Below, piece after piece: positions 43,128-63,226 of a stretch of DNA of 64,000 nt. The notes under the pieces were generated by a model, which did no database searches, was not told the DNA's origin, and was given only the letters and a program-made list of their open reading frames with translations. Location: positions 49,319-113,318 of the forward strand of contig JAGCDO010000049.1 in assembly GCA_017651265.1 (NCBI GenBank), given 5' to 3'. The first letter of the stretch is position 1, and every line of letters starts with the position of its first letter. Both the position numbers and the translations under genes were made by a program. This stretch comes from Prevotella sp. Its GTDB lineage: Bacteria; Bacteroidota; Bacteroidia; Bacteroidales; Bacteroidaceae.

Positions 43128-43171
43128 CCCTTGCACAAAAAAGGCTCGGTATACAAAAAAACAAGGTTTTA

Positions 43172-43203
43172 TTTGGTTTTTCGCTCACTTAATCGTACCT
43201 TTG
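43172..43203 (+). promoter_or_regulatory. galE promoter; copy of a dispersed promoter cassette
   Basis: TTTG at 43172-43175, 20 nt, TACCTTTG at 43196-43203. From 43171 to 43203 the sequence matches, with two changes, the tandem cassettes before the xylanase gene. Confidence 0.85.
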
Positions 43204-43233
43204 CACGGTGTATATTATCAACAGAACAATAAG

Positions 43234-44274
43234 ATGAAACAGACTATCCTTGTTACCGGTGGTACGGGCTTCATTGGAAGTCATACCACAGTGGAACTGC
43301 AACAGGCCGGCTATCGTGTGGTGATTGTCGATAACCTTTCCAACTCTAAGGCAGAGGTAATCGACGGAATCGAGAAGATCACCGGTGAGCGTCCGGCTTT
43401 CGAGCAGGTGGATTGCTGTGATCTTTCTGCCCTGAAGAATGTCTTCAGGACATATCCCGATATAAAAGGTATCATTCATTTCGCCGCCAGTAAGGCAGTA
43501 GGCGAGAGTGTGGAGAAACCTTTGCTCTATTACCGTAATAACATTACGTCGTTGCTGAACCTGTTAGAGCTGATGCCGGAATACGGTGTGAAGGGTATTA
43601 TCTTCTCTTCCAGTTGTACCGTCTATGGACAGCCGTCGAAGGAGAACCTTCCTGTTACCGAGAAAGCACCTATTCAGCAGGCGCTGTCACCTTACGGAAA
43701 CACGAAACAGATCAACGAGGAAATCATCCAGGACTATATCCACAGCGGCGCTGATATCAAAGCGGTCATCCTGCGGTATTTCAATCCCATCGGTGCGCAT
43801 CCTTCTGCCTTGATCGGCGAGTTGCCCAATGGCGTTCCCATGAACCTGATTCCCTTTGTTACTCAGACGGCCATCGGTATTCGCGAGCAGTTGAAGGTGT
43901 TCGGTAACGATTATGATACACCCGATGGTACTTGCATCCGCGACTATATCTATGTGGTTGATCTGGCCAAGGCTCATGTAAAAGCCATGGAAAGAGTGCT
44001 CGATAATCCTGACACCGATCCTGTGGAGGTATTCAATATCGGCACGGGAACAGGCTTGAGTACCTTGGAAGTGGTGGAAGGCTTTGAGAAAGCCACGGGC
44101 GTGAAGCTGAACTGGACCTATGCTCCCCGTCGTGAGGGTGATATAGAGAAGGTCTGGGGAAATGTGGAGAAAGCCAACAAGGTACTTGGCTGGAAAGCTG
44201 AAGCGAATATAGAAGACGTGCTCCGCTCTGCCTGGAAATGGCAGTTGAAACTGCGCGAGGACGGTATTCAGTAA
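43234..44274 (+). CDS. galE: UDP-glucose 4-epimerase
   Basis: A 346-residue short-chain dehydrogenase-type epimerase, start ATG at 43234. NAD site GGTGFIGSHT (about 9-18), catalytic SSSCTVYG (about 125-132) and Y154-x3-K158 in SPYGNTKQ. YFNPIGAHPSALIGE and PDGTCIRDYIYVVDLAKAH are GalE-specific. It interconverts UDP-glucose and UDP-galactose for the Leloir route and surface glycans. An in-frame TTG upstream lies inside the promoter and is rejected. Confidence 0.95.
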   Translation: MKQTILVTGGTGFIGSHTTVELQQAGYRVVIVDNLSNSKAEVIDGIEKITGERPAFEQVDCCDLSALKNVFRTYPDIKGIIHFAASKAVGESVEKPLLYYRNNITSLLNLLELMPEYGVKGIIFSSSCTVYGQPSKENLPVTEKAPIQQALSPYGNTKQINEEIIQDYIHSGADIKAVILRYFNPIGAHPSALIGELPNGVPMNLIPFVTQTAIGIREQLKVFGNDYDTPDGTCIRDYIYVVDLAKAHVKAMERVLDNPDTDPVEVFNIGTGTGLSTLEVVEGFEKATGVKLNWTYAPRREGDIEKVWGNVEKANKVLGWKAEANIEDVLRSAWKWQLKLREDGIQ

Positions 44275-58897: not shown

Positions 58898-60754
58898 CTA
58901 TTTCACTACCTTCTTCCCATTCACAATGTAAAGACCGGAGGGGAGTTGATCCATAGATGTTGCCTGCATGCGCACACCGTTGAGGTTGTAGATACCCTTC
59001 GAGATGTCGACGGTGCTGTCAGCAATAGTGCTGCTGATGGCTGTGGGCTCACCGCCATTCAGTCCGCGAACAAAACCGGCATAGACATGCTTGCGGTAGT
59101 AGTTGCTGTCCCAAATGCCAACGGGCTCACCACCACGCCAGCCGCTGTTGTTGGGTGAGTCGGTGGCACACCACTGACAGATGCCCCACTGCTGTTCGGG
59201 TGGGATGATGCGGAAATACTCCTTGATGATCCACTCGTAGAAGTCGGCCATCTTCTTGTGCTCGGCTTCGGTAATCTGACTGGTCTTGATGGAGCTGCCC
59301 CATCGGTTGGAACCGCGTACATAACCCATATCCATCTCGCTGATGCGACAGAGCTTACCGCTATTGGCGATGATCTGGAACATCTGGGTGATATGCTTCT
59401 TGATGTTGTTCAGGTTCGTTTCGTTCTCGTGGCACGAGATGTGCATCTGGGTACCGATACCGTCGATCTTGGTGACACCGTCGGCTTCCCATTTCTTGAT
59501 CCAGTTGACCAGACTCTTCACTTTGTGGTTGTCGTCCCAGTCGGACTCCAGGTTGTAGTCGTTGATGAAGAGCTTGATGTCTTCGGGTCCGTACTTGCGA
59601 GCCAGACGGCAGGCCTGACGAACATATTCGAGGTCGCCCATGTAGTCCTGCCAATAGAAGGCATCGCCGCCTACATCCCATGTGGCATTAGGATTGCCGT
59701 TGGGATTATAATCCTTCGAGTGCTGCAGTGTATAGTTTCCGCTGCCGTCGTTACCGTCACCGCCGATGGCCTCGTTGACCAGATCCCAAGCCTTGACCTT
59801 ACCGTCGCAGGCTTCCATCATACTCTTGATCCACTTGTCCATGGCATAGACAAGGGTGTCGTGCATCTCTTCCTTGGTTTGGGGAACGGTGCTGGCCTTA
59901 TAGCCTTCGAACTTGATGCTCTGGATATAGACGTCGCCAATGTAGTTGGGAACATGCAGGAGAATGAAGTTTCCGTCCATGGTTGGGGTGACGGATACCT
60001 GTACGTCCTGCCACTCCGTGCTGAACGGGATGCTGAAGTTAGCGCCGCCGTTCCAGTCGCCCAGACGACCGTCGAGCTTACCAGAGCCTGAGCCCTTCAC
60101 ATTAAAGGTCATCTTATATTCCTTATTCTTTTCAAGGACGATATTGCTCATGATGACGAACTGCACTTCCCAAGGATAGGATTTGGTGGTAGTCACCTTC
60201 AGTCCGTTGGTCTTGTCGAACTTGAAAGAGAAGCCGTATTCGCTTTCGTTGTTATCGGGCTTCCAGCCGATGTTCTGGTCGGTACGGAAATCCTTGACGG
60301 TGATGAGGTTAAACTCCTCAGTGCCCGGTATAGGCTTGTCGGCCAGCAGCTTCAGTAACCATCCCTTGGGCTGCTGCGAGTGCCAGGCGAGGGTGTGGCC
60401 ATAGACGCTGACGCCGGCATTGGTGGCTGCGGTGATGAATTTCTTCACGTTGTTGAAATTCATGTTACCATTGCCATCTACGCAACTGGCCATCTTCATG
60501 GCGTTACCTGCAACGGTTTCGCTGGCGTTTTTACTGATCATGTTCCTGACCAGGGCGTTATCGAGGTTCTCGGTAGCAATGCCCAACTTGAAATTGGGGT
60601 ACTTGTCATGGTCGATGTATTCCTTGAGTGCTTTGTATTCATCCAAATACCGATAGTTGTCGTCGTTTGGCTTTCCCAACTCGAATTTCTCCTGTGCCAA
60701 AGCGGTGGTAGCCAGACTGGAGGCAAACATTACTAAGAGTGTCTTAATCTTCAT
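58898..60754 (-). CDS. GH10 endo-1,4-beta-xylanase with inserted carbohydrate-binding module
   Basis: A 618-residue secreted enzyme (signal MKIKTLLVMFASSLATTALAQ). The GH10 barrel is split: its first part ends near 150 (VYGHTLAWHSQQPKGWL), a module of about 135 residues with beta-sandwich character (about 160-295) is inserted, and the barrel resumes with catalytic acid/base E328 in WDLVNEAIGG and nucleophile E473 in RISEMDMGY. The same layout is known in Prevotella xylanases. A T9SS-like tail closes the protein (GIYNLNGVRM ... GLYIVNGKKVVK). It cuts xylan outside the cell or at its surface. Two tandem promoter cassettes precede it. Confidence 0.92.
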   Translation of the reverse strand: MKIKTLLVMFASSLATTALAQEKFELGKPNDDNYRYLDEYKALKEYIDHDKYPNFKLGIATENLDNALVRNMISKNASETVAGNAMKMASCVDGNGNMNFNNVKKFITAATNAGVSVYGHTLAWHSQQPKGWLLKLLADKPIPGTEEFNLITVKDFRTDQNIGWKPDNNESEYGFSFKFDKTNGLKVTTTKSYPWEVQFVIMSNIVLEKNKEYKMTFNVKGSGSGKLDGRLGDWNGGANFSIPFSTEWQDVQVSVTPTMDGNFILLHVPNYIGDVYIQSIKFEGYKASTVPQTKEEMHDTLVYAMDKWIKSMMEACDGKVKAWDLVNEAIGGDGNDGSGNYTLQHSKDYNPNGNPNATWDVGGDAFYWQDYMGDLEYVRQACRLARKYGPEDIKLFINDYNLESDWDDNHKVKSLVNWIKKWEADGVTKIDGIGTQMHISCHENETNLNNIKKHITQMFQIIANSGKLCRISEMDMGYVRGSNRWGSSIKTSQITEAEHKKMADFYEWIIKEYFRIIPPEQQWGICQWCATDSPNNSGWRGGEPVGIWDSNYYRKHVYAGFVRGLNGGEPTAISSTIADSTVDISKGIYNLNGVRMQATSMDQLPSGLYIVNGKKVVK

Positions 60755-60782: not shown

Positions 60783-60818
60783 CAAAGGTACGATTAAACG
60801 AGCGAAAAACCAAATGAA
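60783..60818 (-). promoter_or_regulatory. Xylanase promoter cassette, proximal copy
   Basis: On the minus strand TTTG (60814-60811), 20 nt, TACCTTTG (60790-60783), then 28 nt to the ATG. This 36-bp block is identical to the distal copy and nearly identical to the galE promoter. Confidence 0.85.
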
Positions 60819-60855
60819 TTTGAATTTTTCCGAGTGTGAGTATTTTCGGCGAAGC

Positions 60856-60891
60856 CAAAGGTACGATTAAACGAGCGAAAAACCAAATGAA
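60856..60891 (-). promoter_or_regulatory. Xylanase promoter cassette, distal copy
   Basis: Identical 36-bp copy, 73 bp upstream of the proximal one: TTTG (60887-60884), 20 nt, TACCTTTG (60863-60856). It starts 14 nt after the end of the preceding gene. Confidence 0.82.
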
Positions 60892-60905: not shown

Positions 60906-61340
60906 TTACGGCGTAGCCAGCAAAGCATAGGGAATATCGTCGCACAGCATGGAACAGGCCATTTGCTCAACATCCGACTGTTGGGATGGGGTGGAGGATG
61001 GTTGTTCTGTAGTGTTCCGAACCAGAAGGCGTTCCTTGTATTGGGTAACTACCCGTGTTTGATAGACGGTGTCGCGGATGGTCTCTATATGCATAATGGT
61101 GTCGTGCTGCACCTGAATGGTCTGCGCCAACGACTGCTTGTCGGGTTGGGCCATCTTGGAATGTAGTCCGTAGCCGGCGATGAAGCTGATGAGGCTGGCG
61201 GCAACGGCAATGGCGGCAGCTATTCCACGGTCTTTACGACGGTGCGACTGCCACGGTTCTACATCTATACGGTTGTTGACGGTCTGCCGCTGACGGCGGG
61301 CCGACTGGATGATCTGTTCGTTGGTGATGTTATTTTTCAT
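60906..61340 (-). CDS. Single-span membrane protein, putative anti-sigma factor
   Basis: A 144-residue protein with a basic cytoplasmic N-terminus (about 1-38; SARRQRQTVNNRIDVEPWQ), one span (about 39-60; GIAAAIAVAASLISFIAGYGL) and a periplasmic part with coiled-coil-like heptads (TIQVQHDTIMHIETIRDTVYQTRVVTQ). It overlaps the ECF sigma gene by 11 nt. The position and topology suggest a membrane anti-sigma factor, but no ZAS or RskA signature is seen, so the call is inferred from context. Confidence 0.65.
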   Translation of the reverse strand: MKNNITNEQIIQSARRQRQTVNNRIDVEPWQSHRRKDRGIAAAIAVAASLISFIAGYGLHSKMAQPDKQSLAQTIQVQHDTIMHIETIRDTVYQTRVVTQYKERLLVRNTTEQPSSTPSQQSDVEQMACSMLCDDIPYALLATP

Positions 61341-61902
61341 ATCTTTTGAGTTTTTTGCGGATGATGTTCATGGTTTTATGGAGGCGCGACTTGACCGTTC
61401 CTTCTGGTATTCCGATGATTTCGGCCACCTGCGGGATGGTGAGTTCCTCCTGATAGTGTAGTGAAAAGAGTTGGTGCAAGGGAGCTGGCAGTTCACTCAA
61501 TACCTGCTCCAAGGCTTGGTCGAGTGCGGCAGCATCCAGTTGCACTTCTATGGGTTGTTCGGAAATGGGCTCAGCATCGAGCGAGGCCAACAGCTGCGCC
61601 TCGTAGGCATTGTTGCGGTAGTGGTTACGACAGAGGTTATAGGCTATTGTGAAGATCCATGTGCTGACACTTCGACCTTCCTGATAACGACTTCGAGCCT
61701 CGTAAGCCCGCAGGAACACATCGTGCGTATAATCAGCTGCCAGTTCCTCGTTACCGCCCAGCTGCATGAAGAAGAAGCCCTTCAGGCGTCGGGCATAGCG
61801 GCGATACAGCTCTTCGAAAGCTGCATCACTGCCTGCCGCTGCTCTTGTCATGAGTTGCTCGTCGGTATGCTGCCGAAGGGGTTTCAGACGGAAGATACTC
61901 AT
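61330..61902 (-). CDS. ECF RNA polymerase sigma factor
   Basis: A 190-residue sigma-70 family ECF factor. Region 2 is FEELYRRYARRLKGFFFMQLGGN ... YTHDVFLRAYEARSRYQEG with the -10 helix ending STWIFTIAYNLCRNHYR; region 4 is LSELPAPLHQLFSLHYQEELTIPQVAEIIGIPEGTVKSRLHKTM. It directs polymerase to a set of stress- or substrate-linked genes. It starts within the stop of the preceding secreted-protein gene (ATGA) and overlaps the membrane protein after it. Confidence 0.92.
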   Translation of the reverse strand: MSIFRLKPLRQHTDEQLMTRAAAGSDAAFEELYRRYARRLKGFFFMQLGGNEELAADYTHDVFLRAYEARSRYQEGRSVSTWIFTIAYNLCRNHYRNNAYEAQLLASLDAEPISEQPIEVQLDAAALDQALEQVLSELPAPLHQLFSLHYQEELTIPQVAEIIGIPEGTVKSRLHKTMNIIRKKLKRYEK

Positions 61903-63146
61903 TTCAGATAGCCTTTGAACTCATTAACATCGTATCCCCTTTTCTCCAACTGGCGGATGATATCGTTGAAGATGTCGGTAAGCCACTGGTAGCGCTCTGG
62001 GTTGTGCTGCTTGTAATAGGGCAGCTGGTCGTGTAGCAACCGGATGTAGTTCATGGATTGACCTGAACCGCTGAACATTTCGTATCGTCGTGTGTCCCTG
62101 ACCTCGGGATGGAACGGCATACGCAAGTACTCCAGACGGTAACGCTGCTCGATGTTGTGACGCTTCACGGCGCGGTTGTCGTAGGGCTTGGCTGAGTAGC
62201 GCATGGTGAGACCTTCGTTGTAGAGGCAGGCCTTGATATCATCGGACAATCCCTGACTAAGATTATACACCCATATGTCGTGAGCCGACAGATAGACGGG
62301 TCGTTCGGAATGGTCGAAGATGTAGTGCATGATGTTGCGAAGCGTCTGGTCCTGCAACAAGGCATTATGTAGCTGGTTCCACACCTTGTCGTCGAAGGGA
62401 ATACCGATGTGCCCGAATACGTCTTTCACATAATCAGGGTTCATGGCAGCATCCTCGTCGTAGAGAACCTTGTCCTTGTGCACGCCTAACACATATTGCA
62501 GGATGAGTTTGCCGATGATTCCGCCAGGATGGGGACCGATGTAAACACCGCCTTCGGCCATGCCTTGCAGCTCGTTGAAGTGGTACTGCAACGACTCTTC
62601 AGGGTACTGTCCGCTCTCGTAGTAACGCTTCAGCAGTTGGACCATGCGTACGGTGTCGCGCTGCGGAATGAGGTATTGTATCCAGAGCTCGTAGTCGTCG
62701 GCCCAAGAGTCATCGGGGAGCTTGGCAATGGCCGAATCGGCGTACATCTTATCTGCATCGGCTTTTTCTAACAACCCCGGTTTGTAGTTGTCCTGATAAG
62801 CGCAATAATAAAAAGTATAGGAGTTGGAAATGGCCTTCTCCATGCGCCCCACCACGTTAAGTTGTTTGCGAAGTTCTTCTCCTGACTTCCAGTCTTTCTT
62901 TTTGTACCCTAGACAGAAGACCTTCCTATCCGTCACCTCGAAGAGATTACGCCATGCAATCTCATCCTTCGGGTGTTGAGCCACAAAGTCGTTCCAGTAG
63001 TTATACATGCTGTCTAATACCACAGAGTCTTTTTCATAGAAACCATCCACGATGTGGGCGAGGCGCTCTGTTTTCTGTGCACTGGCACCAGTCATCATCG
63101 TGACGGCTGCCAGCATTGTCAACATTGTCCGTTTCATACGCTTCAT
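61899..63146 (-). CDS. Secreted protein of unknown function, first gene of the ECF operon
   Basis: A protein of about 415 residues. Starts at 63173, 63146 and 63137 are possible; the last two place a clean signal peptide (MKRTMLTMLAAVTMMTGASAQ) at or near the N-terminus. The mature part is helical with many Tyr, Asp and Trp (EKDSVVLDSMYNYWNDFV, YYCAYQDNY, GGVYIGPHPGGIIGKLILQYVLG, HDIWVYNLSQG). The repeated short helices suggest a TPR-like scaffold. I do not recognise a family. Translational coupling to the sigma gene suggests a role in the signal. Confidence 0.72.
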   Translation of the reverse strand: MKRMKRTMLTMLAAVTMMTGASAQKTERLAHIVDGFYEKDSVVLDSMYNYWNDFVAQHPKDEIAWRNLFEVTDRKVFCLGYKKKDWKSGEELRKQLNVVGRMEKAISNSYTFYYCAYQDNYKPGLLEKADADKMYADSAIAKLPDDSWADDYELWIQYLIPQRDTVRMVQLLKRYYESGQYPEESLQYHFNELQGMAEGGVYIGPHPGGIIGKLILQYVLGVHKDKVLYDEDAAMNPDYVKDVFGHIGIPFDDKVWNQLHNALLQDQTLRNIMHYIFDHSERPVYLSAHDIWVYNLSQGLSDDIKACLYNEGLTMRYSAKPYDNRAVKRHNIEQRYRLEYLRMPFHPEVRDTRRYEMFSGSGQSMNYIRLLHDQLPYYKQHNPERYQWLTDIFNDIIRQLEKRGYDVNEFKGYLK

Positions 63147-63226
63147 TTGAATTTGTTTTGACAGCATACACATGAAACGTCAAATCGTTCAAAAAATTAT
63201 GTGTTCTCATTGAAACTTATATAAAA

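Follow-up and report, generated by a model that had tools for sequence, protein, structure and literature searches.

A dispersed hairpin repeat with a predicted promoter of its own stands before a xylanase gene and many unrelated genes of Prevotella

Why should a xylanase gene carry two exact copies of one promoter, and why should nearly the same promoter stand before an epimerase gene elsewhere on the contig? The question arises in 64,000 nucleotides of Prevotella sp. (contig JAGCDO010000049.1 of assembly GCA_017651265.1), the whole stretch analysed, which we call the window; its genome (G000; 3.16 Mb, 69 contigs, 93.89% complete) is the home genome below. The original prediction of an exact 36-bp repeat with a full promoter in each copy, and of a near copy with two changes before galE, was borne out. 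The 36-mer CAAAGGTACGATTAAACGAGCGAAAAACCAAATGAA at 60783-60818 recurs exactly at 60856-60891, a spacing of 73 bp, and on the minus strand both copies match TTTGGTTTTTCGCTCGTTTAATCGTACCTTTG (TTTG-N20-TACCTTTG) with 0 mismatches, at 60783-60814 and 60856-60887, reading into the xylanase gene. Before the epimerase gene TTTGGTTTTTCGCTCGTTTAATCGTACCTTTG is found at 43172-43203 with 2 mismatches, and no match arose in 100 shuffles. The further proposal, that this is a mobile or copied ready-made promoter, stands in part: the copies are many, dispersed, directional and different between relatives, but the copied unit is not the 36-bp block. It is a hairpin of ~73-91 bp, made of an inverted arm (A') and the promoter arm (A), a palindrome that ends in its own -7 box. 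With a probability of roughly 0.6, we favour the explanation that these units are a non-autonomous, directional hairpin repeat, similar to miniature inverted-repeat transposable elements (MITEs) or to REPINs, hairpin-forming doublets of repetitive extragenic palindromic (REP) sequences, which is itself a promoter and comes to stand at existing promoters. The features concerned, in window coordinates, are as follows (ORF, open reading frame).

60783-60863, minus strand: full unit, with left -7 box, small hairpin, A' arm and A arm with the proximal promoter (row L001:1501-1581 of the unit alignment; model match C47:110101-110173).
60783-60814, minus strand: proximal promoter, TTTG-N20-TACCTTTG, 28 bp ahead of the xylanase ORF start (pattern match).
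60819-60855, minus strand: A' arm, an imperfect reverse complement of the promoter arm that carries the GGCTTCGCC hairpin (sequence and covariation).
60856-60887, minus strand: distal promoter, TTTG-N20-TACCTTTG, the second exact copy (pattern match; partial model match C47:110174-110231).
58898-60754, minus strand: GH10 xylanase with a CBM_4_9 domain (domain match).
43145-43203, plus strand: unit ahead of galE with a worn A' arm, its promoter at 43172-43203 (pattern and model match).
43234-44274, plus strand: galE-like epimerase, its start taken as the ATG at 43234 (domain match).

The 37 bp that separate the two xylanase copies are also conserved and form the inverted arm of the promoter arm, and the copy before the epimerase gene retains remnants of such an arm (model match at 43145-43203). 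The epimerase ORF as called spans 43201-44274 and encodes an NAD-dependent epimerase/dehydratase family protein by domain match; we take it to be galE, as the original prediction did.

A BLAST search of the home genome with the 109-nt double copy produced 53 matches, many of them near full length, and at the printed loci the arrays alternate A, the promoter arm, with A', its imperfect reverse complement with the small GGCTTCGCC hairpin. Each A arm holds a -33 TTTG, a fixed spacer and a -7 TAnCTTTG at its extreme end, and in an alignment of 27 units the stem distinguishes short from long forms. The units are bounded by TAnCTTTG boxes, of which the left is often unlike the right. The right box travels with the unit: the variable base of the inner arm agrees with it in 86 of 90 units (94 were taken, and 90 entered this count), and of the 28 units whose two boxes differ, 27 have an inner arm that matches the right one. 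The unit is therefore A'A with its own terminal -7 box, and the left box is that of the preceding promoter.

Long-range pairing between A' and A holds in 94.4% of cells, drops to 32-57% when the partners are slid, and includes 42 cells with double changes against 12.9 in shuffles; support for the small hairpin is weaker (98.8% paired, with 6 double-change cells against 1.2), and the shuffle counts ignore kinship among rows. Covariation this strong, together with a distal promoter that in tandem arrays would transcribe the next hairpin, could point to an RNA element, that is, a leader hairpin made from upstream promoters and governing termination or stability. We think this very improbable. Single-unit loci such as L003, L019 and L023 have the hairpin on the upstream side of its own promoter, and the 2657 cells counted in 248 of 294 distinct aligned units, gapped cells excluded, comprise 2361 Watson-Crick pairs, 50 G.T and 127 A.C, with no wobble excess on the promoter strand, though A.C is a wobble on the opposite strand and a single pair accounts for 53 of the 127. 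Because that excess is lacking, the covariation probably reflects symmetry at the DNA level or templated copying, and not selection for an RNA fold. A known RNA family was also rejected, since Rfam at gathering thresholds returned only tRNAs in the window.

Two variants of the unit were seen in passing. Atypical units in the home genome (C46:21518-21580, L407) and in its close relative G118 (C26:94772-94834, L417) have a coupled AAAATCT/AGATTTT insertion in both arms, which lengthens the promoter spacer to ~28 bp. A second subfamily, whose promoter arms resemble TTTGTTCTGCACTCGTTTTTTCGTAACTTTG, is represented at C46:83956-84112 of the home genome, L211 and L245, and lies before LysS and GlnS in relatives.

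A sequence-only model of the unit gave 171 matches in the home genome (E-value ≤1) and 159 in G118 (E ≤0.01), and the promoter pattern has 475 matches in the whole home genome compared with 36 for the reversed control. Array and promoter statistics come from six contigs of the home genome totalling 518 kb. These hold 71 canonical promoters (TTTG-N19-21-TAnnTTTG; reversed control 8), 26 of them inside family matches, and 26 arrays, from which a genome total of 150-160 is extrapolated. Conservation beyond the boxes, already noted in the original prediction, is a trait of the family: 18 of the 20 spacer positions reach at least 0.85 in its N20 promoters (n = 13), whereas no position exceeds 0.76 in non-family N20 promoters (n = 25).

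The prediction had proposed counting copies genome-wide and asking whether they lie in one orientation upstream of genes, and this they largely do. An ORF of at least 80 aa with its start no more than 63 bp away was found for 21 of the 26 arrays in the promoter direction and for 8 of 26 in the opposite direction, compared with 35% of random positions and 27 of 45 non-family canonical promoters. On four contigs the next ORF was co-oriented for 19 of 21 arrays and the remaining two stand ahead of tmRNA and TrmB in the same direction, as judged with a crude ORF caller that flagged 7 of the 21 inside ORFs and placed the next called ORF more than 1.2 kb from two arrays. The random and non-family controls belong to the 26-array sample; in a set of 38 distinct downstream flanks of high-scoring loci, which has no control of its own, 35 have an ORF within 63 bp, one has tmRNA, one tRNA-Leu and one no assigned gene.

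The genes downstream of the units are mutually unrelated. Those named by Pfam include thymidine kinase, a type II dehydroquinase, LptF/G, a Cys/Met pyridoxal-phosphate enzyme, an ABC transporter and a piece of a DEAD helicase, and those named by eye include LysS, GlnS, QueC, TrmB, PyrK and HisG; no common theme was seen among the 38 flanks, whose names were mostly given by eye, with only some domain-scanned. These genes bear on the view that the palindromes are regulon operators, binding sites for a regulator selected at the genes it controls. Being palindromic, conserved and placed at promoters, the units resemble operators, yet we regard this as improbable: the stem sequence is highly variable while remaining self-complementary, the genes served are as different as those for tmRNA, tRNA, xylanase and thymidine kinase, and units occupy few orthologous promoters of relatives. 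In a scan with a loose pattern of 230 bp upstream, units were found at 4 of 19 same-genus LysS loci (G000, G006, G019 and, weakly, G008), 3 of 21 GlnS loci (G000, G007 and G008; G043, outside the genus, had a weak score), 2 of 19 galE loci (G000 and, weakly, G006; one of the 19 is truncated) and 1 of 23 QueC loci (G000). The scan shows occupancy only, because flanks are unalignable at such distances and some copies may lie inside operons.

A search at the DNA level through 398 genomes of the genus identified closer relatives, G118 (98% over the galE region) and G203 (95%). Comparison of presence and absence, another check proposed with the original prediction, found that relatives differ by gain, loss or exchange of units: of 30 array loci tried between the home genome and G118, 28 gave a result (L196 had no anchor and L200 was empty), and 9 of these differ in unit number or identity, gain and loss being undistinguished, while 19 are the same, with the ambiguous locus L208/L372 scored as unchanged. 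Two more loci fall outside this count, C46:25524, where no unit was found in G118, and C46:104448, where the flank is rearranged. Some of the differences are clean steps of one unit's size (73-87 bp). The home genome has an additional 84 bp at C46:83956, where all 373 shared bases are identical, and an additional 83 bp at C51:9452, plus 12 bp in the leader; G118 has an additional 87 bp at the CGTAACTTTG box before LptF and 73 bp at the PyrK locus. Ahead of tRNA-Arg (C46:100296) the arrays differ between alignable flanks, and the tmRNA array of the home genome is replaced in G118 by a short unrelated stretch. Local duplication as the sole source was rejected, because at C46:83956 and LptF the stem of the extra unit differs from that of its neighbour.

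The xylanase array is comparable only in G203 and G340, the G118 contig ending ~4 kb short. Its promoter is A-A'-A in the home genome and a single A arm in G203; G340 (86%) has no A arm and carries another palindrome, ATTACAGGGGATACGCTATCGTGTGTCCCCTGTAAT, instead (L396, about 650-700). The unit before galE is kept in G118 and G203; in G340 its place is taken by two units from a different subfamily. Upstream of the xylanase array three ORFs run in the same direction as the xylanase (60906-63173, minus strand): one of 144 aa without a Pfam match, a sigma-70 family factor of extracytoplasmic function size (PF04542, PF08281), and one of 424 aa without a Pfam match.

Differences of this kind could also arise by concerted evolution without transposition, the main rival, in which old resident promoters are homogenised by gene conversion, template switching at the quasi-palindrome keeps the arms complementary, and slippage or recombination between direct repeats alters unit number. 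Arrays exchanged or shortened at fixed places fit such a process, as do the coupled two-arm insertions at C46:21518, which template switching would leave, and a transposase search (Y1_Tnp only) that found none. Alone, it leaves unexplained the unrelated promoter before tmRNA in G118, where the home genome has an array, and the units that stand behind unrelated older promoters. We judge it rather unlikely as the whole account, although gene conversion with template switching may well contribute.

The units behind older promoters are seen at left edges. A left box alone is no evidence, because CTTTG at the left edge already comes with the small hairpin; it is a properly spaced TTTG that counts. 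In a sample of 116 left flanks, 73 were family-like, and 38 of the 43 non-family flanks were kept after removal of near-duplicates. TTTG precedes the left box by 20 bp in 7 of these 38 and by 19 bp in 3 (one case, L041, lacks the TA of the box), and at the other 28 offsets tested it occurs 9 times altogether. These counts support the view that the -7 box of an older, unrelated promoter immediately precedes some units.

On the reading that we prefer, a hairpin repeat that brings its own promoter, a unit would settle next to an existing promoter, immediately downstream of its -7 box, and landing at -7 boxes would be the mode of gain. The new terminal -7 box would lie near the gene, which would retain its polymerase site, and repeated arrival would build A-A'-A arrays such as that before the xylanase gene. 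Copying might proceed via a folded or cruciform strand, and gain would require an enzyme or a template switch. Loss is easily explained, because units sit between short direct repeats: recombination or slippage between the repeated boxes or arms would remove a unit cleanly.

Several points weigh against this reading. Use of the units as promoters in the cell is predicted from their sequence. None of the unit differences was polarised as a gain, and deletion between short direct repeats would look alike. A clear target-site duplication is missing, as the left box cannot be relied on to match the right. Of the ten left-edge promoters, three (L048, L399 and L403) may be degenerate copies of the family, two of them (L399 and L403) representing a single locus in the home genome and in G118. 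Five of the 26 arrays have no near downstream ORF in the promoter direction, though two arrays met precede tmRNA and tRNA-Arg. Finally, Y1_Tnp (PF01797) had 0 matches in the home genome at E ≤1e-3, other transposase families not having been searched; a REPIN driven by RAYT, the REP-associated tyrosine transposase, was rejected on this result. A bolder version, in which units home on -7 boxes, are copied by some non-RAYT route via a folded strand and have replaced or overlaid about a third of the canonical promoters in a gut bacterium, including those of tmRNA, tRNAs and aminoacyl-tRNA synthetases, such that promoters turn over through a repeat population rather than point mutation, is possible and is offered here tentatively.

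The suggested occurrence of related repeats in other Bacteroidales holds within the family. Among 251 family genomes spanning 30 genera, the model finds the unit in 121 genomes and 18 genera; only a small number of candidates from each genome was scored, and per-genome counts are therefore floors. Of 60 genomes searched for the 32-mer with at most 3 mismatches, 17 contain it; every one belongs to the 36 from the same genus (the home genome included), and it was absent from the 24 searched genomes of other families of the order. A pattern scan of named genomes gave at least 114 stretches, with titles mostly of Prevotella, Prevotellaceae and Bacteroidaceae assemblies, many of them rumen-named; the carriers include the cultured Prevotella aff. 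ruminicola Tc2-24 and Prevotella sp. P5-50. Carriage by phages or plasmids as the main route was set aside: the unit had no match in 50,697 phage records, one partial match among plasmids, in a record from Phocaeicola, and five stretches on four viral contigs. One 126-kb contig listed as viral carries two units (L178, L179).

Among earlier concepts is that of putative mobile promoters, with which this family shares similar promoter DNA before unrelated genes of one genome; what is specified in addition is the unit with its palindrome and the way it turns over among close relatives. The concept is cited in the BrickBuilt paper considered below (PMC4596501). Correia elements of Neisseria, given as 204 bp with sigma-70-like promoters and reported to invert (PMC10969869), are likewise short dispersed inverted repeats with many copies upstream of genes, and their promoters can drive neighbours; the Prevotella unit is shorter, its Bacteroidetes-type promoter ends exactly at the edge, and it forms A-A'-A arrays. 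BrickBuilt, a MITE of Porphyromonas gingivalis with a run of 23-nt repeats, a leader and a tail, and 19 copies in one strain, had bidirectional promoter activity in E. coli tests, and its authors raise the mobile promoter idea (PMC4596501). Both are intergenic repeats of Bacteroidales, with promoter activity known for BrickBuilt and predicted for the Prevotella units, in which tandem 23-nt repeats with leader and tail were not seen. REPINs are copied by RAYT, with a promoter role only speculated (PMC8049555), and share with the Prevotella units two inverted arms, a variable loop, intragenomic populations and local gain or loss; unlike them, the home genome lacks a Y1_Tnp match, and the GTAG and CGTC end tags of REP sequences (PMC3733652) are absent from the 27-unit consensus. 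Sigma-ABfr promoters of Bacteroides have -33 TTTG and -7 TAnnTTTG (PMC7366714), and the Prevotella units carry both boxes ~20 bp apart, but in contrast to plain promoters of this type they also conserve the spacer and about 40 bp of upstream sequence as part of a repeat.

As in MITEs, the units are short, dispersed and non-coding, with inverted ends and presence/absence differences between relatives. MITEs with promoters are known already; this family differs by its single direction, its -7 box end, its A-A'-A arrays and its share of canonical promoters (26 of 71 in the 518 kb). No description of a Prevotella hairpin promoter repeat was found in the open-access literature searched. If the preferred reading is true, a large share of promoters in a rumen Prevotella, those of core genes included, would derive from a single repeat family undergoing turnover among close relatives, and bacterial promoter rewiring would become testable in a natural strain series. 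Shared promoter sequence in this bacterium would then be no sign of a regulon, and the units would be compact, directional promoter parts for Prevotella.
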